From contig LVAJ01000030.1 of assembly GCA_001603005.1 (NCBI GenBank), positions 124,001 through 188,000 on the forward strand: a stretch of 64,000 bases of DNA, written 5' to 3'. Numbering within the stretch: the stretch's first letter is position 1; every line of letters starts with the position of its first letter. The notes under the pieces were generated by a model that had not been told where the DNA came from, made no database searches, and saw only the letters and a list, made by a program, of their open reading frames with translations. The translations under genes and the position numbers were made by a program. Shown here piece by piece: positions 7,880 to 63,396 of the stretch. This DNA is from Clostridiales bacterium Firm_04 (lineage in GTDB: Bacteria; Bacillota; Clostridia; Oscillospirales; Ruminococcaceae).

Positions 7880-8009
7880 GGTAATTCTCCTTATCATCAT
7901 CAGTAAATTTCAAATTTTTTGTGCGGCGGCTTCTGCAGAGCGCGCCGTGCAGGCTTGCAAGCAATTCATCATTGTTTTTGGGGGCTGTCTCATTTGCCCC
8001 TTCACTCAT

Positions 8010-35367: not shown

Positions 35368-35396
35368 ATTATAACATATATCCGCGAAAAGTGCAA
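35368..35396 (-). promoter_or_regulatory. Promoter of the membrane protein gene
   Basis: TTGCAC (35396-35391), a 17-nt spacer and TATAAT (35373-35368) on the minus strand. Confidence 0.8.
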
Positions 35397-37971: not shown

Positions 37972-38046
37972 GGTTGTTACGCTCCTTTTTTTGCATAATA
38001 ACATCAGAATGATTCATCCAATGCATATACTGCACAGATATATCTA

Positions 38047-38919: not shown

Positions 38920-38948
38920 ATCATACCATATTTCGGCAGAAAAGTCAA
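38920..38948 (-). promoter_or_regulatory. Promoter of the XRE gene
   Basis: TTGACT (38948-38943), a 17-nt spacer and TATGAT (38925-38920). The -35 box overlaps the last codons of the upstream hydrolase gene. Confidence 0.75.
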
Positions 38949-40363: not shown

Positions 40364-41830
40364 ATGCAGCCGCATACCGCGATCTATGTGCGGCAGTCTG
40401 CCGACCGCGCGGACAGTGTTTCGCTGGAAACGCAGGAGCAGCTCTGCCGGCAGGAGCTTTTGCCGGACGAACCGGCGCAGGTTTACAGCGACCGCGGCTT
40501 TTCCGGACGGAATACGGAGCGTCCGGCGCTGCGCCGCCTGCTGGATGCGGTGCGTGCGGGGGCGGTGCGGCGGGTGCTGGTCTACAAGCTCGACCGCATC
40601 AGCCGCAACCTCGCGGATTTCACGCAGCTGCTGCGATTATTCGAGGCGCATCATGTGGCTTTCGAGTCGCACACGGAGCGCTTCGAGACCGCGTCCCCGA
40701 TGGGGCAGGCGATGCAAAGCCTGCTCATGGTCTTTGCGCAATTAGAGCGCGAAACGATCAGCGGGCGTGTGCGGGATGCGGCATTTTCGCGGGCGAAAGC
40801 GGGATTCGACACAGGCGGACCGCCGCCGTTCGGGTTCCGGAAGGTGCCGCATACGATCCTCGGCAGGCGCACGCAGATGCTCGCGCCGGATGACAACGCA
40901 GCGCTGATCCGCAGCGGTTTTCTGCAATATCTGCAAGCGGAAGGCTCGTTGACGACCGTTTGCAGAGACTGGACAGCGCGCGGCATCCGGACGGCGCGGG
41001 GCGGCACATGGTCGCCGAATACGCTCTGCCGCATGCTGCGCAATCCGGTGTATGCACAGGCGGATTTCCGCGTATATGCGTACTTATCCTCGCGCGGCGC
41101 AGAGATCTGTGCGCCGGAGTCGCCGCCGGAACAGCACGGTATTTACCTGTACACCGACCGCCGGCAGAATCAGGCGCGCTTCTCCGATCTGACGGGCAGT
41201 CTTGCGATCTGCGCGCCGCATATCGGGCTGATCGCGCCGGAGATCTGGCTTGGCTGTCAGAAAAAGCTCGATGCTTCGCGGAAATTGCGGCAGACGGGCA
41301 AGGGGCGGCGCAGCTGGCTGAGCGGGCTGATCTTCTGCATGCAGTGCGGCAGCGCGATGACGGTCGTGCAGGGGCGGCATGCGGATTATCTGCTCTGCGG
41401 CGGAAAAAAGCGCGGACGATGCAGCGGCGCGGGGGCGGTCTGGCGGAAGGAAGATGCAGAGGATCTGGTCGGGCGCGTCCTGTCTGCGCGGCTGGATGCA
41501 TTGCGAAGCTGTCCGGTTCCGCCGGAATCAGACAGCGAAAATACGGCAATGCGGGAGCAGCTTTCGGCGCTGTATCTGCGGCGGGAGCAGATTTTGCAGC
41601 GCATGACGGAAGCGCCGGAAGCGGAATTTGCCGTGCTGACCGAAGCGGCAGTGCGGATCAGCGAAAAATGCCGCCGTACAGAAGAAATGATCGCCGCGCG
41701 GTCGTATCCGCAGCAGATGCCGCTGCCGGAATGGTCAGCCTGTGACATGGATGCCCGCCGGACAGTCGCACGGACGCTGCTGCACGGCGCCTTTGCGGAC
41801 GGCGAAATGCTTCATGTGTTTTTGCAGTAA
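40364..41830 (+). CDS. Large serine recombinase
   Basis: 488 residues after AAAGGGGG. The N-terminal resolvase domain (about 1-150) has YVRQSADRADSVSLETQ with the nucleophile Ser at the S of RQS, plus DRGFSGRNTERPAL and YKLDRISRN. The recombinase domain (about 155-270) and a zinc beta-ribbon (FCMQCGSAM...CGGKKRGRCSG) follow, then a coiled-coil C-terminal region. Members integrate or excise phages and conjugative elements, or invert or excise DNA in sporulation. No phage, excisionase or element genes lie beside it, so its substrate is not in the window. Confidence 0.9.
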   Translation: MQPHTAIYVRQSADRADSVSLETQEQLCRQELLPDEPAQVYSDRGFSGRNTERPALRRLLDAVRAGAVRRVLVYKLDRISRNLADFTQLLRLFEAHHVAFESHTERFETASPMGQAMQSLLMVFAQLERETISGRVRDAAFSRAKAGFDTGGPPPFGFRKVPHTILGRRTQMLAPDDNAALIRSGFLQYLQAEGSLTTVCRDWTARGIRTARGGTWSPNTLCRMLRNPVYAQADFRVYAYLSSRGAEICAPESPPEQHGIYLYTDRRQNQARFSDLTGSLAICAPHIGLIAPEIWLGCQKKLDASRKLRQTGKGRRSWLSGLIFCMQCGSAMTVVQGRHADYLLCGGKKRGRCSGAGAVWRKEDAEDLVGRVLSARLDALRSCPVPPESDSENTAMREQLSALYLRREQILQRMTEAPEAEFAVLTEAAVRISEKCRRTEEMIAARSYPQQMPLPEWSACDMDARRTVARTLLHGAFADGEMLHVFLQ

Positions 41831-47341: not shown

Positions 47342-49393
47342 TCACGCTTTTACGAGAATTTTTGCGCCATACGGCGAAAGCGGCAGCTTGCTCTGATAGA
47401 TCTTGCCGGTTTCATAATCGCGCAGCGCATAGGGCAGATTGACGGCTTTCTGCTCCCGTGTCCAGTTCATGACGAACAGGAAGCGCGTGCCGTCGGTGCC
47501 GAGCCGCTCTGCTGCGACGACGCCGTGCGGGAAGGTCGCATCCAGCGCAGGCTGCACGCCGAGCCGTTCCGCAAGCGAGATCAGAAAATCAGAGAAGAAT
47601 TTGTCCTCTGCGAAGCCGCCGAGATAATAGGCAGTGCCTCTGCCGAAGCTGTTGCGCGTCAGGCAGGGCAGGTCGTCCGGCATGCAGGGATTGCCCGTGT
47701 CATAGACGCCGAGAATTTCCGCACCGGCGGGCGCAACACGCTCGCAGAGCCGTTCCAGCCGGTAGCTTTCCGCAAGCGGGAACGGTGCTTTGAGAATATG
47801 CATGGTCTCGGTCTGCCCCTCATAGAGCGGATCAATTTCGAGAAAGCGGATGCCCGCCAGCTCGGCAAGCCCCTGTGCAGGCGTATCGCCCATGAAGCAC
47901 AGGTCGTTTTCATCGACCGCGCCGCTGTGCATCGTCAGCAGGACGGTGCCGCCGCGCTTGGTGTAATCGCGGATCTTTTCTGCGACATCCGCGCGCAGCA
48001 TGTAAAGCATGGGCACGCAGAGCAGATGATAGCCGGAAAAATCGGTCTCTGCATTGACAAAATCCACGGCATAGCCCGCTTTCCAGAACGGCAGATAGCA
48101 CCGCAGCATGAGGTCATTGTCCCCGATGCTGGTGTTCCGCGGACCTTTCGCGCCGTTGACCGCCCAGTGATTTTCGATGTCATAGAGGATCGCGATATGC
48201 GCATCCGTCCGCGCGCCGCAGAGCGCATCGAGCCTGCCGAGCGCCGCGCCGAGATCGCTGACTTCCTGAAAAACACGCGTATCTGTGCGGTTTGCATGCG
48301 TCATGACAGCGCCGTGGAATTTTTCGGAGCATCCCCTGCTCTGCCGCCACTGGAAATACTGGATCGAATCCGCGCCGTGCGCAAGATTGGAGATCGCGGT
48401 CAGGCGGTGAAAGCCCCATGTTTTCGGACGGCAGACATCGTGCCAGTTCGTGTTCGAGGGCGTATTTTCCATGAGCAGGAACGGTTTTCCGAGCATCGAG
48501 CGGCACATGTCGGAGAATGCGTCCGCCCAGAATGCGTTATAGGTCTCGTCGCCGTCCGGCATGCTGTGCCACGCAGGATAGCTGTCCCACGAAACGACAT
48601 CGAGTGATTTTGCGAGCTCCTGATAATTGATGCCGTCATAGAAGCCCATGAAATTCGTGGTGACCGGAATCTGCGGATTCGCGGCTTTCAGGGGTGCTGT
48701 TTCCGCATCGAAAAAGCTGCGTGTCTGTGCGGTACAGAAGCGCTTCCAGTCGAGCGCAAGCCCGTGGATCGGGCAGTCGCCGCGCGGCGATTCGATCTGT
48801 TCCCATTCGGTGTAGGTGTTCGACCAGAACGCCGTCCACCATGCACGGTTCAGCGCATCGAGCGAGCCGTATTTTTCTTTGAGCCAGCCGCGGAACGCAT
48901 CCTGACAGAGCGGACAGTGGCACTCCCCCTGGATCTCGTTGCTGACATGCCAGAGAATGACGGCGGGGTGCGAGGCAAAGCGCTCCGCGAGTTTTTCGTT
49001 GATCGCCCGCACTTTTTCGCGGTAGACGGGCGAGGTATAGCAATGGTTATGCCGTCCGCCGGCGGGTTCGCGGGAACGGTCTGCATGGACGCGCCGGACT
49101 TCGGGATACTTCGCAGCGAGCCACATCGGGCATGCGCCGGAAGGCGTCGCGAGCACGGTGTAAATGCCGTTTGCATAGAGCCGGTCGATGATCTCCGCGA
49201 GCCAGTCAAGGCGGTAGTCGCCCTCTGCCGGTTCGAGCGCAGACCACGCAAAAATACCGAGCGAAACGCAGTTGATCTGCGCCTGCTTCATCAGTTCGGC
49301 GTCCTGCGCAAGAATGTCCGGACGGTCGAGCCACTGCTCCGGATTGTAGTCGCAGCCGTGCAGAATATGCGGATAGGATGTGACGGTTCGCAT
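47342..49393 (-). CDS. Beta-galactosidase (GH42)
   Basis: 683 residues from ATG 49393 after AAAGGGGG, the usual GH42 length. The start HILHGCDYNPEQWLDRPDIL, the acid/base Glu in WHVSNEIQGECHCPLC and the nucleophile Glu in FLLMENTPSNTNW identify the family. The Cys cluster near the acid/base resembles the zinc site of GH42 trimers. It has no signal peptide, so it acts on imported galactosides. Its promoter contains a palindromic operator candidate, suggesting sugar-responsive repression. Confidence 0.94.
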   Translation of the reverse strand: MRTVTSYPHILHGCDYNPEQWLDRPDILAQDAELMKQAQINCVSLGIFAWSALEPAEGDYRLDWLAEIIDRLYANGIYTVLATPSGACPMWLAAKYPEVRRVHADRSREPAGGRHNHCYTSPVYREKVRAINEKLAERFASHPAVILWHVSNEIQGECHCPLCQDAFRGWLKEKYGSLDALNRAWWTAFWSNTYTEWEQIESPRGDCPIHGLALDWKRFCTAQTRSFFDAETAPLKAANPQIPVTTNFMGFYDGINYQELAKSLDVVSWDSYPAWHSMPDGDETYNAFWADAFSDMCRSMLGKPFLLMENTPSNTNWHDVCRPKTWGFHRLTAISNLAHGADSIQYFQWRQSRGCSEKFHGAVMTHANRTDTRVFQEVSDLGAALGRLDALCGARTDAHIAILYDIENHWAVNGAKGPRNTSIGDNDLMLRCYLPFWKAGYAVDFVNAETDFSGYHLLCVPMLYMLRADVAEKIRDYTKRGGTVLLTMHSGAVDENDLCFMGDTPAQGLAELAGIRFLEIDPLYEGQTETMHILKAPFPLAESYRLERLCERVAPAGAEILGVYDTGNPCMPDDLPCLTRNSFGRGTAYYLGGFAEDKFFSDFLISLAERLGVQPALDATFPHGVVAAERLGTDGTRFLFVMNWTREQKAVNLPYALRDYETGKIYQSKLPLSPYGAKILVKA

Positions 49394-49436
49394 GCTGATA
49401 ACCCCCTTTGCGCTTGTGTGAGATACAGTTAATGAT

Positions 49437-49465
49437 ATTATAACCGATAATCGGTATCCCGTCAA
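49437..49465 (-). promoter_or_regulatory. GH42 promoter with internal palindromic operator
   Basis: TTGACG (49465-49460), a 17-nt spacer and TATAAT (49442-49437). Within the spacer lies ACCGAT-A-ATCGGT (49443-49455), a perfect 6-1-6 inverted repeat placed where a bound repressor would block RNA polymerase. Confidence 0.75.
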
Positions 49466-49825
49466 GAAAAAAATGGAGATTCCTGCGGAGATTGCGGAAA
49501 ACAGGCAACTTAGGACGATGATTCCAAAGATCTGTACCAAAATAAAGGACAAGCGATACAGAATCTATCGCTATCAGCACCGGAAACTGTCATAATCGTG
49601 CATTAGTAAATTACATAAAGTATAAATTAAAGATCTGTATACTTTTTGCCAAATTATCATACAAAGGGCAACATCCTTACACTTGTAAAACAAATAAAAT
49701 TCAAGAAGATACGCACGTTTTGCAGCAGATGAAGAAGGCGTATGTACAATTTGCGCAAAACGGCACGCATTTTAGCTTTTCCGTTTCACGAAAAGCGGAA
49801 TTTTGGCGAATTTTCTAGGAAAAGG
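49466..49825. other. Gene-free AT-rich stretch
   Basis: No supported gene or RNA. AAAGATCTGTA occurs twice (about 49525 and 49628) and a GCTTTTC/GAAAAGC hairpin lies near 49775-49798. Otherwise nothing was recognised. Confidence 0.5.
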
Positions 49826-50223: not shown

Positions 50224-53200
50224 ATGGCAAAGACCTTAAAAGATCGGCTGCTGACGTTTGGGGCGGCGGCGGCGGTCGGTCTGAGCGCGATTCCGCTGAG
50301 CAATTTTGCGCAGGCGGCATCCGGAGCGGGGGCAACGAAGATCACTGTTCCGGTCTCAAAGACCGTCACCGGCGATTACACCGGTGACGAGGAGTTCGAG
50401 TTTATTCTGACGCCCGTGGGCGATGCGCCGATGCCGGCAGGCAAGACGGAGCTTTCCGTGAAGGCGCGCGCAGGAGAAACCGTCAATTTCGAGGATATCG
50501 ACGTTGATGTGGATTCGCTGCCGGTCGGCGAGCACGAGTTCCGCTACGCCGTCCGCGAAAAGAGCGGCTCGGATCCGAACATGACCTATGACAGCGAGAT
50601 GCGGTATTATACGGTTCGGTTCACTGTCTCGGAAAATGCTGACGGCGAAAAGACGACTGTTCTTGCGAACCAGAACCCGATTTTTGCGGGAACGGATTAT
50701 TCGATCCCGACGGTTCTGTCGCTCTATAACGCATTTATCCAGAATGATTTTGAAACCGGTACGCATATTTCCGGCGGTATTGCAGTCGGCGGATCTGCGA
50801 CAGCCGGTCTTCCGTATCTTGGCGATGATGCTCCGGTTGCATCCTATGTGCATAAGATCGACGGTCCCGTTGCAGGCTATTCGCCGAAGATCGGTGATGA
50901 CAAAACAGCAGAGTATTCCGGCTACGATAAGAGTGAACTGGTTCTGTACTACAATGAACCGACGAGCGATCTGGGACCGAATTGTGTGCAGACGGATGAG
51001 GTCAAGGTCGATTTTGGCGCTGCATTTAACGCAATTAAAGCGGAATCAAGCAAGATTGCCAATACGCCTGACATCGTTGTTTCGGAAGAACATATCAAAA
51101 CGATTACATACAACGGCTTCAACCCTGAAACGATGACATGGGGCGATATTGAGGCACCAGCATATCTGGAGATTGAGCTGCCGGCATCGGACTGCAATGT
51201 TTCGATCCCGAAAAGCATACTCGACAAGTTCGGAAGAAATAATCTCCCGATCAATTTTGTAACACCGAACGGAACGCTGGAAGATTTCCAGAAGTATGCA
51301 TATAACATTTCGTTCCCTGATTCGGAAGAACTGAAGTTTGCGCAGACGGGTGCAAACTTGAATGATCCGAACGGAAGCTACAGAATGAGCTTTCCGTTTG
51401 GATACTTGAGCATCGGATACAACGGCGATTTTACCCAGAATCCGATGCAGACAATGCGTACTGCGCATGACGGCAGCGTGGAAGGCATGAAGTTTGTCAT
51501 GAACATGCCGGCTGCAAAGAATGTCACGATTCACGATCAGGGCTCTCTGGCATTCCATGTTGTAGCACCGGATGCTGATGTGATTTTCAGCGGCGGTGAC
51601 GGTAACATCATTGCGAAGAATGCATATAACCGCGGCTATGACGCGATGCAGCGTGACTATGTTGCAGGCAAAACGAACGAAGCGCATTTCTACAGCTATA
51701 ACAAGCTCCCGACCGAGCAGGGCGCTCTGACATTCATGAACTCCTACTCCAAGGAAGTCAAGAAGCTGAATGTTGAGATCTCCAAGCAGAAGGTCGGCGG
51801 TGCGGAGCTGGACGGCGCAAAGCTGACGCTGACCGGTCAGACCGCAGACGGCAGCATCATCAACCTGAATAAGGATGATCTTGCGCTCGGCAGGGATGCA
51901 CATGCACCGGCTCCGGAAAATGACGGCTCCAAGCTCGTCTGGATCTCCGGTAAGACGCCGACAACGGTCAAGAACATGCAGGACGGTACCTACACGCTTC
52001 ATGAGGATACCGCGCCGGCAGGCTATCAGACCGCAACGGATATTTCGTTCGTCATCGAGAACGGCAAGCTCGTTTCGGTTGACGGTCATGATCCGGAACA
52101 CGGCAATACTATTATAATGACAGATAAGGAAGTGCCGAAGGGCGCAGATGTTCCGATCTTCAAGGTCGATGCTGCGGACGGCAGCGAACTGAAGGGCGCG
52201 ACACTGACGCTGAGCGGCAAGGACGCAGAAGGCAATGACGTCAAGATCAAAAAGAGCGATGTCAATCTCGGCAGAGAGGCATCCCTGACAAGCGATCAGG
52301 AAGAATACACCCAGCTGACATGGATCTCCGGCGAGACACAGACCGAGATCAAGGGACTTCCGGACGGCACCTACACCCTCGTTGAGGATGCGGCTCCCGC
52401 AGGCTACAATGTCACCACCGCGATCACGTTCGTGATCGAGAACGGCAAGGTGCAGAAGGTCGGCGAGGATGTGCGCTCCGAGGAAGACGACAATACTATT
52501 ATAATGGCAGATGCTCTGAAGAAGGACGTCCTGTTCTCCAAGACGGGCGTGGATGATGCAGAGCTGCCGGGCGCAAAGCTGACGCTGACCGGTACCGACA
52601 AGGCGACCGGCAATGCGGTCACATTCACCGCAGAGCAGTTTGTTGCCGGCGAGGGCGCAGCGCTTTCCGGCACGCCGGCTGATTCGATCAGCTGGATCTC
52701 CGGTTCCGGCGAATCGAGCGTCAAGAGTCTGCCGGACGGCACCTACACCCTGCATGAGGATACGGCTCCTGCCGGCTACGCGCTTGCATCCGATATCACG
52801 TTCGTGATCGAGGAAGGCAAGATCGTGAAGATCGGCGACAAGACCTATTCCGATGCGGACAAGATCGCAATGAGCGATGCGATCGTCACGGACGTTGAGA
52901 TTTCCAAGGCTGACCAGTTCGGCGACGAGGTCAAGGGCGCATCCATGACGCTGACCGGTACAGACCGCAACGGCAATGATATCGAGTTTGAGACCGGCAA
53001 TGTCGTGCTCGGCAGAGAAGCGGAGCTCGGCGAAAACAATGACAAGAAGGCACTTGAATGGACATCCGGTTCCACCTCTACAGTGATCCGGAACCTGAAA
53101 GACGGCAGCTACACGCTGAAAGAGATCGCTGCCCCGAACGGCTACGAGGTCGCAACCGAGATGACCTTCACGCTTGAAAAGGGTAAGCTCACCAAGATCA

Positions 53201-56200
53201 ACGGCGAGGATGTCGCGGAAGTTCAGTCCAAGGTCACGATGACCGACAAGAAGATCGTTGAGATCAAGATCTCCAAGCGGGACGTCGGCGGCGCAGAGCT
53301 GCCGGGCGCAATGCTGACGCTGACCGGTGAGACCGACGGCAAGGACGAAGAAGGCAACAGCGTCAAGGTTCCGGTTGAGTTCTACAACTCCCTGCTGATT
53401 CCGGGCGAAGGCGCAGAACCGCAGACCACGCCTGCCGCAGCGATCCAGTGGAAATCCGGCACGACGGAAACGACTGTCAAGAATCTGCCGGACGGCGAGT
53501 ACACACTCCATGAGGATACTGCACCGGAAGGCAAGAACGTCGCGACCGATATGACATTCGTGATCGAAAAGGGCGTCCTGACACTGGTGAACGGTGTGGC
53601 TCCCGAAAAGGCGAATACCGTTATCATGACGGACACCGATCTGCTGGACGTTGAGATCTGCAAGGCGGATCAGTTCGGCGACGAGGTCGAGGGCGCAACC
53701 CTGACACTGACCGGCAAGAACAGCCGCGGCGAAGACGTTGTGTTCAAGATTGATAATGTCGCGTTCGGTGAGGGCGCAACTCTGCTGCCCACCGTGGACG
53801 GCACCGAGCTGAAATGGGTTTCCGGCAAAACTTCGACTATGGTCAAGCAGCTTCCGGACGGCGAATACCTGCTGCATGAGGAAGCGGCTCCGAACGGCTA
53901 TGAAGTCGCAACGGATATGACATTCGAGATCAAGAACGGCAAGCTCGTGAAGGTCAACGGCGAGGATGTTGCAAGCGGCAATACCGTCACCATGACCGAC
54001 AAGAAAATTGTCGAGGTCAAGATCTCGAAGGCAGATGTGGACGGCAATGAGCTGAAAGGCGCAACGCTGACACTGACCGGCAAGTCCGACCGCACCGATG
54101 CGGACGGCAACAAGCTGGATGTCGTCTTCCCGGCAGGCTCTGTCGAAGCGGCAGAGGATGCGACGGTGAACAGCGGCGAGGGCACGAAGCTCCAGTGGGT
54201 TTCCGGCTCGGCACCGACCAACATCAGGAATCTGGAGGACGGTACATATCTCCTGCATGAGGACTATGCACCGGACGGATACAACATTGCGACCGATATC
54301 GAGTTCGTGATCGAAAAGGGCGAACTGAAATCTGTCAACGGCGCAGCGCCGAAGAAGGCAGGCACCGTCGTCATGACCGATATCGCAAAGGCGGATGTCA
54401 AGATCTCCAAGCAGGATGCATCCGATCACAAGGAACTTCCGGGCGCAACCCTGACGCTGACCGGTAAATCCAACCGGACAGACGCGGACGGCAACAAGCT
54501 GGATGTTGTGTTCCCGGCAGGCTCCGTTGAAGCGGGCGCAGGCGCAGAGGTCATCACCGGCGAAGGCACCGAACTGAAATGGAAGTCCGGCACCGAGCTG
54601 ACCAACATCAAGAATCTGGAAGACGGCGTGTATACACTTCATGAGGACACCGCTCCGGATGAGTACAATGTCGCAACCGACATGACATTCGAGATCAAGG
54701 ACGGCAAGCTCTACAAGATCAACGGCGCAGAGACCGAAGAAAATGCGGACACTGTGACCATGTTTGACGATCAGATCGTCAGAACGCAGATCTCCAAGGC
54801 TGACCAGTTCGGCGACGAGGTCAAGGGCGCAAAGCTCGAACTGACCGGCGTCGATGCAAGCGGCAACGCGATCACGTTCAAGGCGGGCTGCCTTGAGCTG
54901 GGCGACGGCGCAGAGCTGATCAACGGTACCGGCGAAAAGCTGGTCTGGCTGTCCGGCGACTTCGCAACCAATGTGAAGGATCTCCCGAACGGCACCTACA
55001 CGCTGCATGAAGAAGCAGCACCGACCGGCTATCTTGTCACAACGGACATGACATTCAAGATCGAAGGCGGCAAGGTAACCGAGATCAACGGCGAACCGGT
55101 CGAGGAGACCAACAAGGTCGTCATGACTGACCACAAGCTTGCGGAATCCAAGATCTCCAAGGCGGATCAGTTCGGCGACGAGGTCAAGGGCGCAACCCTG
55201 ACGCTGACCGGAAAGACCAAGACCACGGACGCAGACGGCAACACTGTCGAGAAGGACGTTGTGTTCCCGATGGGCGCGGTTGAACTGGGCGAGGGCGCTG
55301 TGCTCGAATCCGGCGAAGGCAAGGAACTGAAATGGATCTCCGGCACAAAGCCGACCAACATCAAGAATCTGGAAGACGGCGTTTATACGCTGCATGAAGA
55401 TGCGGCACCGAACGGCTATCTGGTCTCCACCGATATGACATTCGAGATCAGCGGCGGCAAGCTCGTCAAGATCAACGGCGAGGATGTTACCGAAGGCAGC
55501 ACCGTGACGATGACCGACGAGAAGATCGTCGAGGTCAAGATCAATAAGGCGGATCAGTTCGGTGCAGAGGTCAAGGGCGCAACCCTGACACTGACCGGCA
55601 AGTCCGATGAAAAGGACGAAGAAGGCAACAACAAGGACATCGTGTTCAAGGCAGGTTCTCTGGAAGCGGGCGAAGGTGCAACGGTTGAATCCGGCGAAGG
55701 CAAGGAGCTGAAGTGGATCTCCGGCACCGGCGCAACGAACGTCAAAAATCTGGAAGACGGCACTTATACGCTGCATGAGGATGCGGCACCGAATGGCTAT
55801 CTGGTCTCCAGCGACATGACCTTCGAGATCAAGAAGGGTGTCGTGACCAAGATCAACGGCGAAGATGTCACCGAAGGCAACACCGTGACGATGATCGACG
55901 AGAGACTCGGCGATGTGAAGATCGCGAAGGAAGATGCATTCGGCGGCGAAGTCAAGGACGCAAAGCTGACGCTGACCGGTAAGGACAGTGATGGCAATGC
56001 GGTCACATTCCCGGCAAATTCTGTTGAAGTCGGCGCTGGTGCAACGCTCATCAGCGGCAGCGGCGAGACACTTGCATGGGTATCCGGCGATGAGGCAACG
56101 AATGTTCTGAATCTTGTTGACGGTATCTACACGCTGCATGAGGAGACTGCTCCGAACGGCTACGCAGTCGCACATGACATGACCTTCGAGATCAAGGGCA

Positions 56201-59200
56201 CGAAGATCGTGAAGATCAACGGCGAGGAAGTCGCAGAAGGCACTGTTGTCACGATGATCGACGAGGCACTCGGCGATGTCAAGATCTCCAAGCAGGATGC
56301 ATCCGATCACGAGGAACTTTCGGGCGCAACCCTGACACTGACCGGTAAGACGAAGACCACCGATGCAGACGGCAACGAAGTTGAAGAAACCGTCGTGTTC
56401 CCGGCAGGTTCCGTCGAACTGGGCGAGGGCGCAACGCTTGAATCCGGCGAAGGCACCGAGCTGAAATGGGTTTCGGGCGATGCACCGACCAATGTGAAGA
56501 ATCTTGTTGACGGTATCTACACGCTGCACGAGGAAGCGGCACCGAACGGCTTCGAGGTCGCAACCGACATGACCTTCGAGATCAAGGGCGGCAAGCTCGT
56601 GAAGATCGGTACCGAGGCAGTCGCGGCAGAGGATGCGGACAGCACTGTGATCGTGATGGTCGATAACGCGATCGTGACCACCACGACGCCGGCGACCACC
56701 ACCGCAGAGGAGACCACGACGACCACCACGACAACAACCACACCTGCTGCAACGACTACGACCGCAGCAGAAACGACAACTCCGGCAGCGACAACCACGA
56801 CCACAACGACCACTCCGGCGACAACAACTACGACCACGACGACAACAACTACGACGACCACGACTACAACTACGACGACCACGACTACAACTACGACCAC
56901 AACTACTACCACGACCACAACTACTACCACGACCACTACTACTACGATTATTGAAAAGGTGACGACCACCACAGAGGAAGTCACGACAACAAAGGCAACC
57001 ACGACAACGAAGGCAGCGACCACCACGAAGGCAACGACCACAGCTGTTACCACGACCGAAGCGACGACCACGACCGTGACCACCACAACTGCAGGTCCGA
57101 CCGTGAAGATCGCGAAGGAGAACGGCTTCGGCGGCGAGGTCAAGGGCGCAACGCTGACGCTGACCGGTAAGGACAGCGAGGGCAATGCAATTGACTTCCC
57201 TGCAAATTCTGTTGAGCTGGGCGGCGGCGCAACGCTGATCAGCGGCGGCGGCGAGAAGCTTGCATGGGTATCCGGCGACGAGGCGACGAATGTTCTGAAC
57301 CTTGCGGACGGCACCTACACGCTGCAAGAAGAAGCGGCACCGAACGGCTATAAGGTCGCAACAGACATGATATTCGAGATCAGCGGCGGCAAGATCGTGA
57401 AGCTGAACGGCGAGGAAGTCGCCGAGGGCACGATCGTCGTGATGATCGACGAGGCACTGACAGAAGTCAAGATCAACAAGGCGGATCAGTTCGGCGCAGA
57501 GGTCAAGGGTGCAACCCTGACGCTGACCGGTACTGACAAGAACGGCAATGCAGTCGAGTTCCCGGCAGGTTCTGTCGAGCTGGGCGAGGGCGCTGTGCTC
57601 GAATCCGGCAGCGGCACAACACTGAAATGGGTATCCGGCGACGAATCGACAATCATCAAGAACCTTGTTGACGGTTCCTACACGCTGCATGAAGATGCAG
57701 CACCGAACGGCTATCTGGTCTCCACAGACATGACATTCGAGATCAGCGGCGGCAAGGTAGTGAAGATCAACGGCGAAGATGTCACCGAAGGCAACACCGT
57801 GACGATGATCGACGAGAGACTCGGCGATGTGAAGATCGCGAAGGAAGATGCATTCGGCGGCGAAGTCAAGGACGCAAAGCTGACGCTGACCGGTAAGGAC
57901 AGCGAGGGCAATGCGGTCACATTCCCGGCAAATTCTGTTGAAGTCGGCGCTGGTGCAACGCTCATCAGCGGCAGCGGCAAGACACTCGCATGGGTATCCG
58001 GCGACGAGGCAACGAATGTTCTGAATCTCGTTGACGGTATCTACACGCTGCATGAGGAGACTGCTCCGAACGGCTATGCAGTCGCACACGACATGACCTT
58101 CGAGATCAAGGGCACGAAGATCGTGAAGATCAACGGCGAGGAAGTCGCAGAAGGCACTGTTGTAACGATGATCGACGAGGCACTCGGCGATGTCAAGATC
58201 TCCAAGCAGGATGCATCCGATCACGAGGAGCTTCCGGGCGCAACCCTGAAACTGACCGGTAAGACGAAGACCACCGATGCAGACGGCAACGAAGTTGAAG
58301 AAACCGTCGTGTTCCCGGCAGGTTCTGTCGAACTGGGCGAGGGCGCAACGCTTGAATCCGGCGAAGGCACCGAGCTGAAATGGGTTTCGGGCGATGCACC
58401 GACCAATGTGAAGAATCTTGTTGACGGTATCTACACGCTGCACGAGGAAGCAGCACCGAACGGCTTCGAGGTCGCAACCGACATGACCTTCGAGATCAAG
58501 GACGGCAAGCTCGTGAAGATCGGTACCGAGGCAGTCGCGGCAGAGGATGCGGACAGCACTGTGATCGTGATGGTCGATAACGCGATCGTGACCACCACGA
58601 CGCCGGCAACCACCACCGCAGAGGAGACCACGACGACCACCACTACGACAACAACCACACCTGCTGCAACGACTACGACCGCAGCAGAAACGACAACTCC
58701 GGCAGCGACAACCACGACCACTACGACCACTCCGGCGGCAACAACGACGACCACCACTACGACGCCGGCTGCAACTACCACGACAACAACTACAACGACT
58801 ACCACCACGACTACGACGACCACGACGACAACTACTACCACAACTACGACGACCACGACGACAACTACTACCACCACAACTACTACCACGACCACTACTA
58901 CTACGATTATTGAAAAGGTGACGACCACCACAGAGGAAGTCACGACAACAAAGGCAGCGACTACAACAAAGGCAACGACCACAGCTGTTACCACGACCGA
59001 AGCGACGACCACGACCGTGACCACCACAACCGCAGGTCCGACCGTGAAGATCGCGAAGGAGAACGGTTTCGGCGGCGAGGTCAAGGGCGCAACGCTGACG
59101 CTGACCGGTAAGGACAGCGAGGGCAATGCAATTGACTTCCCTGCAAATTCTGTTGAACTGGGCGACGGCGCAACGCTGATCAGCGGCGGCGGCGAGAAGC

Positions 59201-62200
59201 TCGCATGGGTATCCGGCGACGAGGCGACGAATGTTCTGAACCTTGCAGACGGCACCTACACGCTGCATGAAGAAGCAGCACCGAACGGCTATAAGGTCGC
59301 AACAGACATGACATTCGAGATCAGCGGCGGCAAGATCGTGAAGCTGAACGGCGAGGAAGTCGCCGAGGGCACGATCGTCACGATGATCGACGAGGCACTG
59401 ACAGAAGTCAAGATCAACAAGGCGGATCAGTTCGGCGCAGAGGTCAAGGGCGCAACCCTGACGCTGACCGGTACTGACAAGAACGGCAATGCAGTCGAGT
59501 TCCCGGCAGGTTCTGTCGAGCTGGGCGAGGGCGCAACGCTCGAATCCGGCAGCGGCACCACGCTGAAGTGGGTATCCGGCGACGAATCGACAAACATCAA
59601 GAACCTTGTTGACGGTTCCTACACGCTGCATGAAGATGCGGCACCGAACGGCTATCTGGTCTCCACTGACATGACATTCGAGATCAGCGGCGGCAAGGTA
59701 GTGAAGATCAACGGCGAAGATGTCACCGAAGGCAACACCGTGACGATGATCGACGAGAGACTCGGCGATGTGAAGATCGCGAAGGAAGACGCATTCGGCG
59801 GCGAAGTCAAGGACGCAAAGCTGACGCTGACCGGTAAGGACAGCGAGGGCAATGCGGTCACATTCCCGGCAAATTCTGTTGAAGTCGGCGCGGGCGCAAC
59901 GCTCATCAGCGGCAGCGGCGAGACACTCGCATGGGTATCCGGCGACGAGGCAACGAATGTTCTGAATCTTGTTGACGGTATCTACACGCTGCATGAGGAG
60001 ACTGCTCCGAACGGCTACGCAGTCGCACATGACATGACATTCGAGATCAAGGGCACGAAGATCGTGAAGATCAACGGCGAGGAAGTCGCAGAAGGCACTG
60101 TTGTGACGATGATTGACGAGGCACTCGGCGATGTCAAGATCGACAAGCAGGATGCTGAGGGTGCAGAGGTCAAGGGTGCAACCCTGACGCTGACCGGAAA
60201 GGATAGCGAAGGCAACGAGATCACATTCCCGGCAGGTTCTGTCGAGCTGGGCGAGGGCGCAACGCTTGAATCCGGCGAAGGCACCGAGCTGAAGTGGGTT
60301 TCGGGCGAAGCACCGACCAATGTGAAGAATCTTGTTGACGGTATCTACACGCTGCACGAGGAAGCGGCACCGAACGGCTTCGAGGTCGCAACCGACATGA
60401 CCTTCGAGATCAAGGACGGCAAGCTCGTGAAGATCGGTACCGAGGCAGTCGCAGATGATACTCTGATTGTTATGGTTGATGACGCAATCGTGACCACCAC
60501 GACGCCGGCGACCACCACCGCAGAGGAGACCACGACGACCACCACGACAACAACCACACCTGCTGCAACGACTACGACCGCAGCAGAAACGACCACTCCG
60601 GCGGCAACAACGACGACCACGACAACGACGCCGGCTGCAACTACCACGACAACAACGACCACCACGACGACAACTACGACAACAACCACAACGACGACAA
60701 CGACGACTACCACAACTACGACAACAACGACGACTACCACGACCACGACAACAACGACCACCACGACAACAAAGACCACGACAACCACAACGACAACTAC
60801 GACTACGACCACTACGACCACCACGACTACCACAACCACAAAGGCAACCACCACCACGACCACAGTGACCACGACCGAGACCACTCCGGCTGTCACGACC
60901 ACAACCGTTCGCGCGGATGTGAAGATCGACAAGCAGAATGTCTACGGCGGCGAGGTCAAGGGCGCAACGCTGACGCTGACCGGTAAGGACAGCAAGGGCA
61001 ACACGATCACCTTCCCGAACGGCTCTGTTGAGGCGGGCGAAGGCGCAGCCGTGATCTCCGACAACGGCAATGAGCTCAAGTGGATCTCCGGTGATGAAGC
61101 AACCAATATCAAGAACCTCGAGGACGGCGTTTACACGCTGCATGAGGAAGCTGCACCGAGCGGCTATCTGGTCGCAACCGACATGATCTTCGAGATCAGG
61201 GACGGCAAGCTCATCAGCATCGACAACACCGCAGTTTCCGAGGATACAACGATCGTCATGTTCGATGACGCAATCGTTGAAGTGAAGATCTCCAAGCAGG
61301 ATGTCCACAGCAAGGAGCTCAAGGGCGCAACGCTGACGCTGACCGGCAAGGACGGCGCAGGCAACGCGATCACCTTCCCGGCAGATTCAATCGAGCTGGG
61401 CGAGGGCGCATCCCTTGTCAACGGCAGCGGCGATTCTCTCGTTTGGATCTCCGGCGATCAGCCGACCGACATCAAGAATCTCGCAGACGGCACCTACACG
61501 CTCCATGAGCTGACTGCTCCGACCGGCTATCAGGTTGCAACCGATATCACATTCGTGATCGAGAACGGCAAGCTTGTCAAGATCGGCGAGGAAGAAGTCA
61601 CCGCAGATGCTGAGATCGTGATGATCGACGAAGCACTCGGCGATGTCAAGATCTCCAAGCAGGATGTCCACAGCAAGGAAATCAAGGGCGCAGAGCTGAC
61701 GCTGACCGGTAAGGACAGCAGCGGCAATGCAGTCAAGTTCCCGACCGGCTCGGTCATTCCGGGCGAAGGCGCAGCAGTTGTCACCGGCAGCGGTGAGAAG
61801 CTCGTCTGGACTTCCGGCGATCAGCCGACCGACATCAAGAATCTTGTTGACGGTACCTACACACTCCACGAAGAAGTCGCACCGAACGGCTACAAGGTCG
61901 CAACCGATATCACATTCGTGATCGAGGGCGGCAAGCTTGTGAAGATCGGTGAGGAAGAAGTCAAGGCAGATGCTGAGATCGTAATGATCGACGAGGCACT
62001 GGCAGATGTCAAGATCTCCAAGCAGGATGTCCACAGCAAGGAGATCAAGGGCGCAGAGCTGACGCTGACCGGCAAGGACAGTAGCGGCAATGCAGTCAAG
62101 TTCCCGACAGGTTCTATCGTTCCGGGCGAAGGCGCTGAGGTCGTGACCGGCAGCGGCGAAACGATCGTCTGGATCTCCGGCGATCATCCGACCGAGATCA

Positions 62201-63396
62201 AGAATCTGGATGACGGCACTTACACGCTCCATGAGGAAGTCGCTCCGAATGGCTACAAGGTCGCAACCGATATCACATTCGTGATCGAGGGCGGCAAGCT
62301 TGTCAAGATCGGCGAGGAAGCGGTTCACGCTGATGCGGAGATCGTCATGGTGGATGAGGCAATTGAGACCACAACCACAACGACGGCTACCACCGCAGCT
62401 CCGGCAACCACGACCACAACCACCACGACAACCGCTGCTCCGGTAACCACCACCACGACCACAACCACCACGACGACGACCACGACCACTACGACAACTA
62501 CCACCACCACGACGACCACGACCACAACAACGACCACGACGACCACGACCACGACGACCACGACTACGACGACCACGACAACTACGACGACGACAACCGA
62601 GACCACTACAACCACTTCTGAGACCACAGTCTCCAGCGAGGAAGGCGGCGTTACCGAAACCACCACAACGACCACCGTCACCGCTGCAAAGGCAGAGGTC
62701 CAGATCAAGAAGCAGGATGTTCACAGCAAGGAGATCAAAGGCGCAACGCTGACGCTGACCGGTAAGGACAGCGAGGGCAACACCGTCACATTCCCGGAGA
62801 ACTCCGTTGTTCCGGGTGAGGGTGCCGAGCTTGTCAACGGCAGCGGCGATCAGCTTGTGTGGATCTCCGGCGACCAGCCGACCAACGTCAAGAACCTTGC
62901 AGACGGTACGTACACGCTCCACGAGGAAGTGGCACCGAACGGCTACAAGGTCGCAACTGACATCACATTCGTGATCGAAGACGGCAAGCTCGTCAAGATC
63001 AATGATGCTGAGGTCGAAGCAGACGCAGAGATCGTGATGATCGACGAGGCTGAGGAAGCAACCACTACCACAACATGGGAAACCGGCGATAAGGCTGAGG
63101 ACAACGAGCGCACAACGACCTCGGTGACCGAGACCACTCCGGCAACCAGCGAGACCGGCGATGACGCCGAGAGAACCACGACGACCGAGACCGAGACACA
63201 GACTGTTGCTGCGACGACCACCACGACCGCGCAGACAGCGACCTCGAAGCAGACCGTGCCGTCCAACGGCGTGAACTCCAAGACCGGCTCTGTCCGCACC
63301 GGAGATTCCGCTCCGACTGCAATCGCAATCGTTGGCATCCTGATGGGTGCAGTGGCAGTTGCAATGCGCAAGCGCCGCAACGATGACGAGCAGTAA
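50224..63396 (+). CDS. Giant surface adhesin with 26 CnaB2-like isopeptide repeats and poly-Thr linkers
   Basis: 4390 residues from ATG 50224 with AGGAGG 7 nt upstream. A signal peptide (about 1-32) is followed by a Spy0128/FctA-like pilin domain (about 38-155, VSKTVTGDYTGDEEFEFIL). Next is a choice-of-anchor-A-like region (about 165-505, with FETGTHISGGIAVGGSATAG). From about residue 515 there are 26 repeats of about 115-130 residues. Each has 'I(S/N/A/D)K.D' (Lys), 'GATLTLTG', 'W.SG', 'YTLHE..AP.GY' (Glu) and 'V.M.D' (Asp). Four Thr-rich linkers follow repeats 13, 17, 21 and 25. The C-terminus is SVRTGDSAPTAIAIVGIL with RKRR, like a sortase signal without LP. Lys/Glu/Asp triads predict internal isopeptide bonds as in CnaB2, giving a stiff stalk. 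It is presumably wall-anchored and adhesive. Internal copies of about 1.9 kb show recent duplication. Confidence 0.93.
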   Translation: MAKTLKDRLLTFGAAAAVGLSAIPLSNFAQAASGAGATKITVPVSKTVTGDYTGDEEFEFILTPVGDAPMPAGKTELSVKARAGETVNFEDIDVDVDSLPVGEHEFRYAVREKSGSDPNMTYDSEMRYYTVRFTVSENADGEKTTVLANQNPIFAGTDYSIPTVLSLYNAFIQNDFETGTHISGGIAVGGSATAGLPYLGDDAPVASYVHKIDGPVAGYSPKIGDDKTAEYSGYDKSELVLYYNEPTSDLGPNCVQTDEVKVDFGAAFNAIKAESSKIANTPDIVVSEEHIKTITYNGFNPETMTWGDIEAPAYLEIELPASDCNVSIPKSILDKFGRNNLPINFVTPNGTLEDFQKYAYNISFPDSEELKFAQTGANLNDPNGSYRMSFPFGYLSIGYNGDFTQNPMQTMRTAHDGSVEGMKFVMNMPAAKNVTIHDQGSLAFHVVAPDADVIFSGGDGNIIAKNAYNRGYDAMQRDYVAGKTNEAHFYSYNKLPTEQGALTFMNSYSKEVKKLNVEISKQKVGGAELDGAKLTLTGQTADGSIINLNKDDLALGRDAHAPAPENDGSKLVWISGKTPTTVKNMQDGTYTLHEDTAPAGYQTATDISFVIENGKLVSVDGHDPEHGNTIIMTDKEVPKGADVPIFKVDAADGSELKGATLTLSGKDAEGNDVKIKKSDVNLGREASLTSDQEEYTQLTWISGETQTEIKGLPDGTYTLVEDAAPAGYNVTTAITFVIENGKVQKVGEDVRSEEDDNTIIMADALKKDVLFSKTGVDDAELPGAKLTLTGTDKATGNAVTFTAEQFVAGEGAALSGTPADSISWISGSGESSVKSLPDGTYTLHEDTAPAGYALASDITFVIEEGKIVKIGDKTYSDADKIAMSDAIVTDVEISKADQFGDEVKGASMTLTGTDRNGNDIEFETGNVVLGREAELGENNDKKALEWTSGSTSTVIRNLKDGSYTLKEIAAPNGYEVATEMTFTLEKGKLTKINGEDVAEVQSKVTMTDKKIVEIKISKRDVGGAELPGAMLTLTGETDGKDEEGNSVKVPVEFYNSLLIPGEGAEPQTTPAAAIQWKSGTTETTVKNLPDGEYTLHEDTAPEGKNVATDMTFVIEKGVLTLVNGVAPEKANTVIMTDTDLLDVEICKADQFGDEVEGATLTLTGKNSRGEDVVFKIDNVAFGEGATLLPTVDGTELKWVSGKTSTMVKQLPDGEYLLHEEAAPNGYEVATDMTFEIKNGKLVKVNGEDVASGNTVTMTDKKIVEVKISKADVDGNELKGATLTLTGKSDRTDADGNKLDVVFPAGSVEAAEDATVNSGEGTKLQWVSGSAPTNIRNLEDGTYLLHEDYAPDGYNIATDIEFVIEKGELKSVNGAAPKKAGTVVMTDIAKADVKISKQDASDHKELPGATLTLTGKSNRTDADGNKLDVVFPAGSVEAGAGAEVITGEGTELKWKSGTELTNIKNLEDGVYTLHEDTAPDEYNVATDMTFEIKDGKLYKINGAETEENADTVTMFDDQIVRTQISKADQFGDEVKGAKLELTGVDASGNAITFKAGCLELGDGAELINGTGEKLVWLSGDFATNVKDLPNGTYTLHEEAAPTGYLVTTDMTFKIEGGKVTEINGEPVEETNKVVMTDHKLAESKISKADQFGDEVKGATLTLTGKTKTTDADGNTVEKDVVFPMGAVELGEGAVLESGEGKELKWISGTKPTNIKNLEDGVYTLHEDAAPNGYLVSTDMTFEISGGKLVKINGEDVTEGSTVTMTDEKIVEVKINKADQFGAEVKGATLTLTGKSDEKDEEGNNKDIVFKAGSLEAGEGATVESGEGKELKWISGTGATNVKNLEDGTYTLHEDAAPNGYLVSSDMTFEIKKGVVTKINGEDVTEGNTVTMIDERLGDVKIAKEDAFGGEVKDAKLTLTGKDSDGNAVTFPANSVEVGAGATLISGSGETLAWVSGDEATNVLNLVDGIYTLHEETAPNGYAVAHDMTFEIKGTKIVKINGEEVAEGTVVTMIDEALGDVKISKQDASDHEELSGATLTLTGKTKTTDADGNEVEETVVFPAGSVELGEGATLESGEGTELKWVSGDAPTNVKNLVDGIYTLHEEAAPNGFEVATDMTFEIKGGKLVKIGTEAVAAEDADSTVIVMVDNAIVTTTTPATTTAEETTTTTTTTTTPAATTTTAAETTTPAATTTTTTTTPATTTTTTTTTTTTTTTTTTTTTTTTTTTTTTTTTTTTTTTTTTIIEKVTTTTEEVTTTKATTTTKAATTTKATTTAVTTTEATTTTVTTTTAGPTVKIAKENGFGGEVKGATLTLTGKDSEGNAIDFPANSVELGGGATLISGGGEKLAWVSGDEATNVLNLADGTYTLQEEAAPNGYKVATDMIFEISGGKIVKLNGEEVAEGTIVVMIDEALTEVKINKADQFGAEVKGATLTLTGTDKNGNAVEFPAGSVELGEGAVLESGSGTTLKWVSGDESTIIKNLVDGSYTLHEDAAPNGYLVSTDMTFEISGGKVVKINGEDVTEGNTVTMIDERLGDVKIAKEDAFGGEVKDAKLTLTGKDSEGNAVTFPANSVEVGAGATLISGSGKTLAWVSGDEATNVLNLVDGIYTLHEETAPNGYAVAHDMTFEIKGTKIVKINGEEVAEGTVVTMIDEALGDVKISKQDASDHEELPGATLKLTGKTKTTDADGNEVEETVVFPAGSVELGEGATLESGEGTELKWVSGDAPTNVKNLVDGIYTLHEEAAPNGFEVATDMTFEIKDGKLVKIGTEAVAAEDADSTVIVMVDNAIVTTTTPATTTAEETTTTTTTTTTTPAATTTTAAETTTPAATTTTTTTTPAATTTTTTTTPAATTTTTTTTTTTTTTTTTTTTTTTTTTTTTTTTTTTTTTTTTTTTIIEKVTTTTEEVTTTKAATTTKATTTAVTTTEATTTTVTTTTAGPTVKIAKENGFGGEVKGATLTLTGKDSEGNAIDFPANSVELGDGATLISGGGEKLAWVSGDEATNVLNLADGTYTLHEEAAPNGYKVATDMTFEISGGKIVKLNGEEVAEGTIVTMIDEALTEVKINKADQFGAEVKGATLTLTGTDKNGNAVEFPAGSVELGEGATLESGSGTTLKWVSGDESTNIKNLVDGSYTLHEDAAPNGYLVSTDMTFEISGGKVVKINGEDVTEGNTVTMIDERLGDVKIAKEDAFGGEVKDAKLTLTGKDSEGNAVTFPANSVEVGAGATLISGSGETLAWVSGDEATNVLNLVDGIYTLHEETAPNGYAVAHDMTFEIKGTKIVKINGEEVAEGTVVTMIDEALGDVKIDKQDAEGAEVKGATLTLTGKDSEGNEITFPAGSVELGEGATLESGEGTELKWVSGEAPTNVKNLVDGIYTLHEEAAPNGFEVATDMTFEIKDGKLVKIGTEAVADDTLIVMVDDAIVTTTTPATTTAEETTTTTTTTTTPAATTTTAAETTTPAATTTTTTTTPAATTTTTTTTTTTTTTTTTTTTTTTTTTTTTTTTTTTTTTTTTTTTKTTTTTTTTTTTTTTTTTTTTTTKATTTTTTVTTTETTPAVTTTTVRADVKIDKQNVYGGEVKGATLTLTGKDSKGNTITFPNGSVEAGEGAAVISDNGNELKWISGDEATNIKNLEDGVYTLHEEAAPSGYLVATDMIFEIRDGKLISIDNTAVSEDTTIVMFDDAIVEVKISKQDVHSKELKGATLTLTGKDGAGNAITFPADSIELGEGASLVNGSGDSLVWISGDQPTDIKNLADGTYTLHELTAPTGYQVATDITFVIENGKLVKIGEEEVTADAEIVMIDEALGDVKISKQDVHSKEIKGAELTLTGKDSSGNAVKFPTGSVIPGEGAAVVTGSGEKLVWTSGDQPTDIKNLVDGTYTLHEEVAPNGYKVATDITFVIEGGKLVKIGEEEVKADAEIVMIDEALADVKISKQDVHSKEIKGAELTLTGKDSSGNAVKFPTGSIVPGEGAEVVTGSGETIVWISGDHPTEIKNLDDGTYTLHEEVAPNGYKVATDITFVIEGGKLVKIGEEAVHADAEIVMVDEAIETTTTTTATTAAPATTTTTTTTTAAPVTTTTTTTTTTTTTTTTTTTTTTTTTTTTTTTTTTTTTTTTTTTTTTTTTTTETTTTTSETTVSSEEGGVTETTTTTTVTAAKAEVQIKKQDVHSKEIKGATLTLTGKDSEGNTVTFPENSVVPGEGAELVNGSGDQLVWISGDQPTNVKNLADGTYTLHEEVAPNGYKVATDITFVIEDGKLVKINDAEVEADAEIVMIDEAEEATTTTTWETGDKAEDNERTTTSVTETTPATSETGDDAERTTTTETETQTVAATTTTTAQTATSKQTVPSNGVNSKTGSVRTGDSAPTAIAIVGILMGAVAVAMRKRRNDDEQ
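55912..57825 (+). repeat. Large internal duplication unit, copy A
   Basis: Repeats 12-13, linker 1 and repeats 14-15 of the giant gene (1914 bp). This block is followed directly by a near-identical block at 57826. Confidence 0.85.
56677..57099 (+). repeat. Poly-Thr linker 1
   Basis: About 141 codons, mostly ACC/ACA/ACG/ACT, with a central uninterrupted Thr run and an IIEKVTTTTEEVTTTK segment. The mixed synonymous codons keep the protein Thr-rich while avoiding a pure DNA microsatellite. Confidence 0.9.
57826..59766 (+). repeat. Large internal duplication unit, copy B
   Basis: Repeats 16-17, linker 2 and repeats 18-19 (1941 bp). It differs from copy A by a few substitutions and by length changes in the Thr linker (an added PAATTT unit and a shortened KATTTT part). 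Confidence 0.85.
58591..59040 (+). repeat. Poly-Thr linker 2
   Basis: A near copy of linker 1 with an extra PAATTT block and the same IIEKVTTTTEEVTTTK segment before repeat 18. Confidence 0.9.
59767..60912 (+). repeat. Large internal duplication unit, partial copy C
   Basis: Repeats 20-21 and linker 3 correspond to the first part of copies A and B. Repeat 21 is DVKIDKQDAEGAEVKG instead of the DASDHEEL type, and the linker ends differently, so similarity fades at this point. Confidence 0.75.
60493..60912 (+). repeat. Poly-Thr linker 3
   Basis: Starts like linkers 1 and 2, then continues as Thr with single Lys interruptions and ends TVTTTETTPAVTTTTVRA. It lacks the IIEKV segment. Confidence 0.9.
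62368..62693 (+). repeat. Poly-Thr linker 4
   Basis: A separate Thr tract (TTTTTTATTAAPATTTT...) ending in SSEEGGVTETTTTTTVTAAKA, unlike linkers 1-3 at its end. It precedes the last repeat. Confidence 0.9.

Follow-up and report, generated by a model that had tools for sequence, protein, structure and literature searches.

A 4390-residue predicted fibrillar adhesin with a stalk of 26 CnaB2-like SpaA repeats, each with a Lys-Glu-Asp triad, in a Ruminococcus-like gut bacterium

Within the window (the whole stretch of DNA analysed, 64,000 nucleotides in length) we describe a gene whose product is very probably a single-chain fibrillar adhesin that carries its tip on a stalk of 26 CnaB2-like SpaA domains, each probably locked by a Lys-Asp bond. 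Bond formation is judged probable from an invariant Lys-Glu-Asp triad, the modelled fold and known members of the family, while the mechanics of the stalk, its ligand, its glycosylation and its anchoring to the wall are features that we infer. The protein is a large, regular representative of an already known kind of bacterial adhesin rather than of a new one, larger cross-linked adhesins having been published. Its host is a Ruminococcus-like, dockerin-encoding gut bacterium.

Organization of the gene and its product

A single ORF without internal stops spans the whole feature, and the gene is unbroken within a contig of 307,878 bases, in a genome of 53 contigs and 88.6% completeness. From its N-terminus the product comprises a putative signal peptide, an FctA domain, an ice-binding-like adhesive domain, 26 SpaA repeats and a sortase-type C-terminus (Table 1). 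The union in one chain of a putative signal peptide, an adhesive domain, a repeat stalk and a C-terminal wall anchor is that by which Gram-positive fibrillar adhesins are recognized, the signal peptide here being read by eye. The head domains (FctA, PF20597 and TIGR04215) are absent from the lists returned for the whole protein and appear when the first 512 residues are scanned alone, FctA then scoring 42.4 bits against a cut-off of 22.1 (E = 1.4e-10); PF20597 was also recovered in the genome search, as two pieces above cut-off. Three further whole-protein matches were set aside as summed repeat similarity: WxLIP_HBD, at 66 bits against 28.9 with no single stretch passing, and, both below cut-off and spread over several stretches, pilus_ancill_1 (420.9 of 600 bits) and PplA (211.4 of 325 bits). 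The NCBIfam model for the SpaH/EbpB major pilin (NF033902), applied to the whole protein, did not reach its cut-off (21.2 against 95 bits).

Table 1. Coordinates of the gene and its parts in the window. Repeats R01 to R26 were delimited by their own motifs, and each matched Pfam SpaA (PF17802) when scanned singly (E <= 0.01).
Feature	Position	Strand	Basis
Whole gene, 4390 aa (P0001)	50224..63396	+	ORF call
Putative signal peptide, aa 1-31	50224..50316	+	read by eye
FctA (PF12892, Spy0128-like isopeptide domain), aa 43-150	50350..50673	+	Pfam scan, first 512 aa alone
pAdhesive_15 (PF20597, ice-binding-like adhesive domain) / choice-of-anchor A (TIGR04215), aa 164-470	50713..51633	+	first 512 aa alone
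CnaB/SpaA repeat R01 (K521, E594, D634)	51766..52125	+	motif + PF17802
R02	52147..52512	+	motif + PF17802
R03	52522..52878	+	motif + PF17802
R04	52888..53247	+	motif + PF17802
R05	53257..53634	+	motif + PF17802
R06	53644..54000	+	motif + PF17802
R07	54010..54381	+	motif + PF17802
R08	54394..54768	+	motif + PF17802
R09	54778..55131	+	motif + PF17802
R10	55141..55518	+	motif + PF17802
R11	55528..55899	+	motif + PF17802
R12 (near-copy of R16, R20)	55909..56262	+	motif + PF17802
R13 (near-copy of R17)	56275..56664	+	motif + PF17802
Thr-rich linker 1, longest pure Thr run 42	56668..57096	+	between R13 and R14
R14 (single-repeat AlphaFold model)	57097..57450	+	motif + PF17802
R15	57460..57813	+	motif + PF17802
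R16	57823..58176	+	motif + PF17802
R17	58189..58578	+	motif + PF17802
Thr-rich linker 2, longest pure Thr run 44	58582..59037	+	between R17 and R18
R18	59038..59391	+	motif + PF17802
R19	59401..59754	+	motif + PF17802
R20	59764..60117	+	motif + PF17802
R21	60127..60480	+	motif + PF17802
Thr-rich linker 3, longest pure Thr run 44	60484..60912	+	between R21 and R22
R22	60913..61266	+	motif + PF17802
R23	61276..61629	+	motif + PF17802
R24 (in two-repeat model R24-R25)	61639..61992	+	motif + PF17802
R25 (in two-repeat model R24-R25)	62002..62355	+	motif + PF17802
Thr-rich linker 4, longest pure Thr run 51	62359..62691	+	between R25 and R26
R26	62692..63045	+	motif + PF17802
C-terminal sorting signal: SVRTGD + hydrophobic stretch + RKRR tail (last 35 aa)	63289..63393	+	TIGR01167

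Four Thr-rich linkers divide the array into 13-4-4-4-1 repeats, so that the tandem array described in an earlier note on this DNA holds for the presence of 26 repeats in one chain but is interrupted at these points. An origin of the pure Thr runs as DNA microsatellites was rejected: third bases are mixed within all four (42-51 Thr), with no repeat of one codon. Some periodicity remains in two of them by lag tests, three of 28 lags falling below 0.05 (the run at residue 2200, lags 6 and 7; that at residue 4075, lag 5). Long Thr runs occur in relatives too, reaching 65 residues in locus L090.

An antisense open frame of 3420 residues (51046-61308, minus strand; 3446 from stop to stop) was likewise rejected as a gene, its length being within reach of codon use. 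Only four TTA, CTA or TCA codons occur in the gene, and the long frame follows from this codon use; among 200 synonymous shuffles the longest stop-free antisense stretch averaged 2067 residues, with a maximum of 3739, and four of the 200 reached 3420.

Conservation and divergence of the repeats

The SpaA model PF17802 identifies 26 stretches in the whole protein (585.8 bits; gathering score 23.1) and matches all 26 repeats scanned singly, R14, for example, with 36.5 bits. The array so delimited runs from 51766 to 63045, in good agreement with the 51766-63050 first proposed, and the initial count of 26 repeats with a conserved triad is upheld: the first-strand Lys, the E-box Glu and the last-strand Asp are each invariant in 26/26, in a family whose pairwise identities range from 37% to 99% (median 57%). 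The triad represents three of only 19 invariant columns in an alignment of 118; with 19 columns drawn at random, the chance that three named ones would all be invariant is about P = 0.004, a rough figure, the repeats being related. Met stands two residues ahead of the Asp in every repeat, and the last-strand 11-mers include 21 distinct sequences among the 26.

The residues flanking the triad are less uniform than had been proposed. The context I[SNAD]K around the Lys fits most repeats but not R02 (IFK), R03 (FSK), R06 (ICK) or R26 (IKK). Similarly, the Glu is present throughout, but its motif YTL.E..AP.GY is altered in R05 (APEGK), R08 (APDEY), R13, R17 and R21 (APNGF), and R06 and R07 (YLL). 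Last strands, all retaining the Asp, extend beyond the forms VTMTD, IVMID and IVMVD to IIMAD, IAMSD and VTMFD; the two strands quoted verbatim are present, EIVMVDEA in R25 and VIVMVDNA in R13 and R17.

Relationship to CnaB2 in sequence and predicted structure

Among PDB sequences, the first match to a profile of the repeats is FbaB CnaB2 (2x5p; E = 1.6e-15), followed by the SpyCatcher complexes 4mls and 4mli, and one repeat alone again retrieves 2x5p first (E = 1e-10). This domain is the parent of SpyTag/SpyCatcher. The profile alignment to CnaB2 has a stretch of 13.5 bits containing the Lys, weak alone, and one of 47.5 bits containing the Glu and Asp; the single-repeat alignment is composed of corresponding separate stretches of 10.1 bits (Lys, again weak alone) and 34.8 bits (Glu and Asp). 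Lys, Glu and Asp of the repeats align with Lys, Glu and Asp of CnaB2. Since the Lys-to-Asp span is 111 profile positions in the repeats against 86 residues in CnaB2, the repeats are about 25 residues longer.

The AlphaFold model of R14, in which the modelled stretch ends at the Asp, has a pLDDT of 93.1, and in a Foldseek search it returns 2x5p first and as the only match at E <= 0.001 (E = 1.7e-4), with moderate TM scores of 0.62 (query) and 0.70 (target). A model of R24-R25, built from 60 sequences (60 of the 74 pairs listed), has a pLDDT of 96.2 and a pTM of 0.76. Its first repeat places K7 in a strand at 3-9, E78 in one at 72-80 and D118 in one at 114-118, its second places K128 in 122-130, E199 in 193-201 and D239 in 235-239, and three residues (119-121) separate the last strand of one repeat from the first strand of the next. 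This is the placement of CnaB-type domains, with Lys in the first strand, Glu in the E-box and Asp in the last strand. Fold matches of the two-repeat model are led by two-domain pilins (4oq1, L. rhamnosus SpaA), which superpose poorly (rmsd 8 A or more); 2x5p, covering one domain, is ranked 34 with a target TM of 0.77, the highest among the 50 matches listed.

The parallel with CnaB2 drawn in the earlier note is thus borne out, 2x5p being the top PDB match by profile, by single repeat and by single-repeat fold, with the triad aligned. The check it had suggested, alignment of the repeats to CnaB2 and a model of one of them, gave concordant results in the aligned Lys, Glu and Asp and in the best match of the R14 model; its concern that a model might place the three residues apart was examined at strand level only, where each lies in its expected strand in both repeats of R24-R25.

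Probable block duplication within the array

Parts of the array are near-copies of one another. R14, R15 and R16 each share 97.2% of bases with R18, R19 and R20, respectively, R12 is a near-copy of both R16 and R20, R13 and R17 are 98.5% identical in DNA, and R21 has 88% amino acid identity to R13 and R17. Changes among R12, R16 and R20 are mostly silent (dN 0.004-0.007, dS 0.087-0.114; for R12/R20, 0.004 and 0.114), and those in the pairs R13/R17 (dN 0.010, dS 0.032), R14/R18 (0.019, 0.060) and R15/R19 (0.011, 0.086) less strictly so. From these substitution patterns we read the near-copies as products of recent block duplication under purifying selection.

C-terminal sorting signal and sortases

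The C-terminus reaches 19.2 bits with the anchor profile TIGR01167 against a cut-off of 15.9, a short model that also exceeds its cut-off in nine of 14 control genomes; the Ruminococcus NPXTG model (NF033846, Rumino_NPXTG) does not reach its own (18.5 against 23.5 bits). The pentapeptide SVRTG has no Pro at its second place, nor has NSKTG just ahead of it. Ten sortase matches occur in the own genome, three of them on contig C39, and the genome search gave none on the contig of the window.

Sorting-type C-termini without Pro (SVRTGD, NVKTGD, SLATGD, GAKTGD), selected by motif and by eye, occur in seven proteins of the own genome; loci with such termini are 63289-63393, 6479-7900 (minus strand), L145, L146, L148, L149 and L150, and L070 and L071. 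The four LPxTG forms seen (LPQTG twice, LPSTG and LPDTG), in contrast, each have a sortase match no more than 3 kb away, on contigs C9, C11 and C39, and an LVQTG form is also found near the sortases of C39. This pattern may indicate a sortase whose specificity is unusual.

Distribution among related genomes

In a set of 61 genomes (the own genome, near relatives and others of the order) the repeat profile matches 30 at E <= 0.001, including 24 of 29 from the same genus; at E <= 1e-10 it matches 15 of these 29 and none of 31 others. A phylum-wide draw yielded three of 398 genomes at the latter threshold including the own, that is, two of 397 others. The 75 named loci kept from 203 confirmed stretches belong mostly to Ruminococcus and Oscillospiraceae records, R. 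flavefaciens FD-1 among them, with four from Lachnospiraceae, and the sources, where a title names them, include sheep, goat, yak, roe deer, water deer, water buffalo and horse. Ten other ORFs have at least 15 repeat hits, L090 reaching 26. Counted by E-box motif in these ten and two more with 14 hits, the largest of the 12 has 20 and L090 has 19, against 26 here, several of them being cut at locus or contig ends. Heads differ: of ten relatives scanned over their first 900 residues, four have pAdhesive_15, one has FctA and five have neither. A single full-length relative was found (L074/L175, same contig), 48% identical.

Local alignments are biased towards domains that end in Asp, and the last-strand residue was therefore counted in three ways; the fractions are no census of relatives, as loci were chosen by similarity to the repeats of the window. 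With the window and own genome left out, K/E/D occurs in 378 of 383 distinct domains in which the three columns are covered (272 of 655 are not covered). Full-length alignment of 552 distinct segments gives 393 Asp, two Asn, one Ala and 156 not aligned, and a motif search on 377 stretches from Glu to next Lys gives 335 Asp, 22 Asn and 20 with neither. For all loci, the own included, the respective results are K/E/D in 415 of 422 covered distinct domains (305 of 727 distinct sequences, from 901 hits, not covered); 440 Asp, two Asn, one Lys, one Ala and 170 not aligned among 614 distinct segments of the 901 hits; and 357 Asp, 22 Asn and 21 with neither among 400 distinct stretches, at least 15 of these 21 ending in Thr-rich linkers. 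Where it can be read in these sequences, then, the last-strand residue of relatives is nearly always Asp.

The own genome holds a second array, a 3159-residue frame (L009/L151) with a pAdhesive_15 head and SpaA repeats extending to at least base 35392/35604 of contig C39. Locus L145 is a 267-residue C-terminal piece that runs off the end of contig C31 of the same genome, and the two could be halves of one giant gene.

Genomic setting

Elsewhere in the window, 38945-40102 (minus strand) encodes a type I dockerin together with a beta-lactamase-like serine hydrolase domain (PF13354), a hint that the host forms a cellulosome. A GH94 family enzyme (35509-38004, minus strand) and a GH42 beta-galactosidase (47342-49552, minus strand) are in keeping with use of plant fibre. 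A large serine recombinase with Resolvase, Recombinase and zinc ribbon domains is encoded at 40364-41830 (plus strand).

Proposed function and alternative explanations

We propose that, after export, the FctA and ice-binding-like adhesive tip would be held away from the cell by the 26-domain stalk. In each repeat the E-box Glu would promote an isopeptide bond between the first-strand Lys and the last-strand Asp, one water being lost, and the domain so locked would resist unzipping by pulling or proteolysis. Very short links between domains would make rod segments of the array, and the four long Thr-rich linkers, which may be glycosylated, would provide flexible spacing between them. A sortase probably attaches the C-terminus to the wall. 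A very long covalently locked stalk, as the earlier note had it, is the best reading, its bonds being predicted.

The repeats might instead be ordinary SpaA-fold spacers in which folding or salt bridges account for the conserved triad, with many or all of them not cross-linked. Invariance alone is no proof of a bond, as 16 further columns are equally invariant; the invariant trio nevertheless aligns with the CnaB2 triad, is fixed even in repeats down to 37% identity, and has its counterpart in a SpaA reference structure reported to contain a Lys-Glu-Asp bond (PMC12617251), so that we regard the spacer explanation as quite unlikely. A related concern is intermolecular, namely that the last strand of one repeat locks another chain in a natural tag/catcher network. 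Last strands here resemble each other and that of CnaB2, a domain which has been split in the laboratory (PMC12384687), but all three triad residues are present in every repeat, no orphan strand was seen by eye in the protein, and both modelled repeats of R24-R25 have a full set of strands; we give such swapping almost no credence.

The protein might also be a sortase-polymerised pilin, or the tip of a pilus, and not stand free. In NCBIfam its weak relatives include pilus ancillary protein 1 and the pilin SpaH/EbpB, contig C39 has three sortase matches, and two-domain pilins lead the fold matches of the two-repeat model. Both NCBIfam models, however, are below cut-off (the former over 11 stretches), and the sortase matches lie off the contig of the window, which makes a pilin very unlikely. 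The count of 26 could also be a product of assembly, near-identical blocks having been expanded or collapsed: the near-copies described above are of the kind that would be prone to this, the genome is fragmented and incomplete, and the arrays of several relatives, for example L069, L070 and L072-L074, lie at contig ends. Against this, the gene is unbroken inside its contig, and the near-copies carry silent differences, the linkers vary in length and R21 shares no more than 88% identity with R17, so that one block counted twice does not account for them. We therefore think an artefactual count unlikely, and retain the single-chain adhesin with 26 probably locked domains.

More tentatively, and with doubt outweighing conviction, the relatives could belong to a lineage-specific class of giant stalks in Ruminococcus of the herbivore gut, built from one CnaB2-like subfamily fixed for Lys-Asp in blocks of about four repeats and a Thr spacer, with exchangeable tips and, in the species of the window and two near relatives, a Pro-less SV[RQ]TG[DE] wall signal that would call for a sortase with an unusual specificity.

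Should all 26 bonds form, a single gene would provide a single-chain stalk of great length braced by covalent bonds, and would do so in a gut bacterium of the fibre-degrading type and not in a pathogen. It would also offer a natural series of 26 closely related Lys-Asp domains in which to probe the effects of neighbouring residues on bond speed and tag/catcher specificity; the use of the repeats as new tag/catcher pairs, raised earlier, is plausible, and they are candidates only.

Comparison with known systems

The novelty first claimed for the array was overstated. An AlphaFold-model survey describes tandem repeats of isopeptide domains as often found in isopeptide proteins (PMC12617251), and Lys-Asp bonds are already reported in PF17802, for Spy0125, FbaB and L. 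rhamnosus GG SpaA (PMC12617251, PMC4923907). As the database models of that survey are stated to stop at 1280 residues (PMC12617251), a protein of 4390 could not be included whole, which suggests that surveys limited to proteins below this length miss the longest arrays. In open-licence literature, as represented by titles and the beginnings of abstracts, no description of arrays of this kind in Ruminococcus was found, the nearest published protein from that search being R. gnavus RadA (PMC8615915).

The CnaB2 domain of S. pyogenes FbaB (2x5p) shares with the repeats the triad, an IVMVD-type last strand and the Met two residues before the Asp; it differs in its shorter span of 86 residues from Lys to Asp, against 111, and in the occurrence here of 26 copies in one chain. 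The reference bond for SpaA PF17802, that of Spy0125 (2XID), is given as the same Lys-Glu-Asp kind (PMC12617251), and 26/26 repeats match this family; among the PDB structures considered in that survey, none of the Lys-Asp bonds is reported to be cis. The distinguishing features here are the tandem array, the Thr-rich spacers and the commensal-type gut bacterium. L. rhamnosus GG SpaA, a backbone pilin (5F44) among the top two-repeat fold matches, is reported to have tandem CnaB domains, one with a Lys-Asp bond that forms more slowly and even without an E-box Glu (PMC4923907); a triad therefore does not fix rate or mechanism. Unlike the 26-repeat chain, this is described as a two-domain LPXTG pilin polymerised by sortase (PMC4923907).

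The giant adhesin of Mobiluncus mulieris, reported at 7651 residues with 51 cross-linked Ig-like domains (PMC10619420), is similarly the product of one gene with a long covalently braced stalk (the bonds here being predicted) and a wall anchor. It is described as mixing ester and isopeptide domains behind a thioester-domain-like head, whereas the stalk of the present protein is of a single CnaB2-like Lys-Asp type and its head is pAdhesive_15. Periscope Proteins, as reported, share the tandem near-identical repeats in a wall-anchored rod and count SpaA among their stalk folds, although only parts of the present array are near-identical (PMC9704523).
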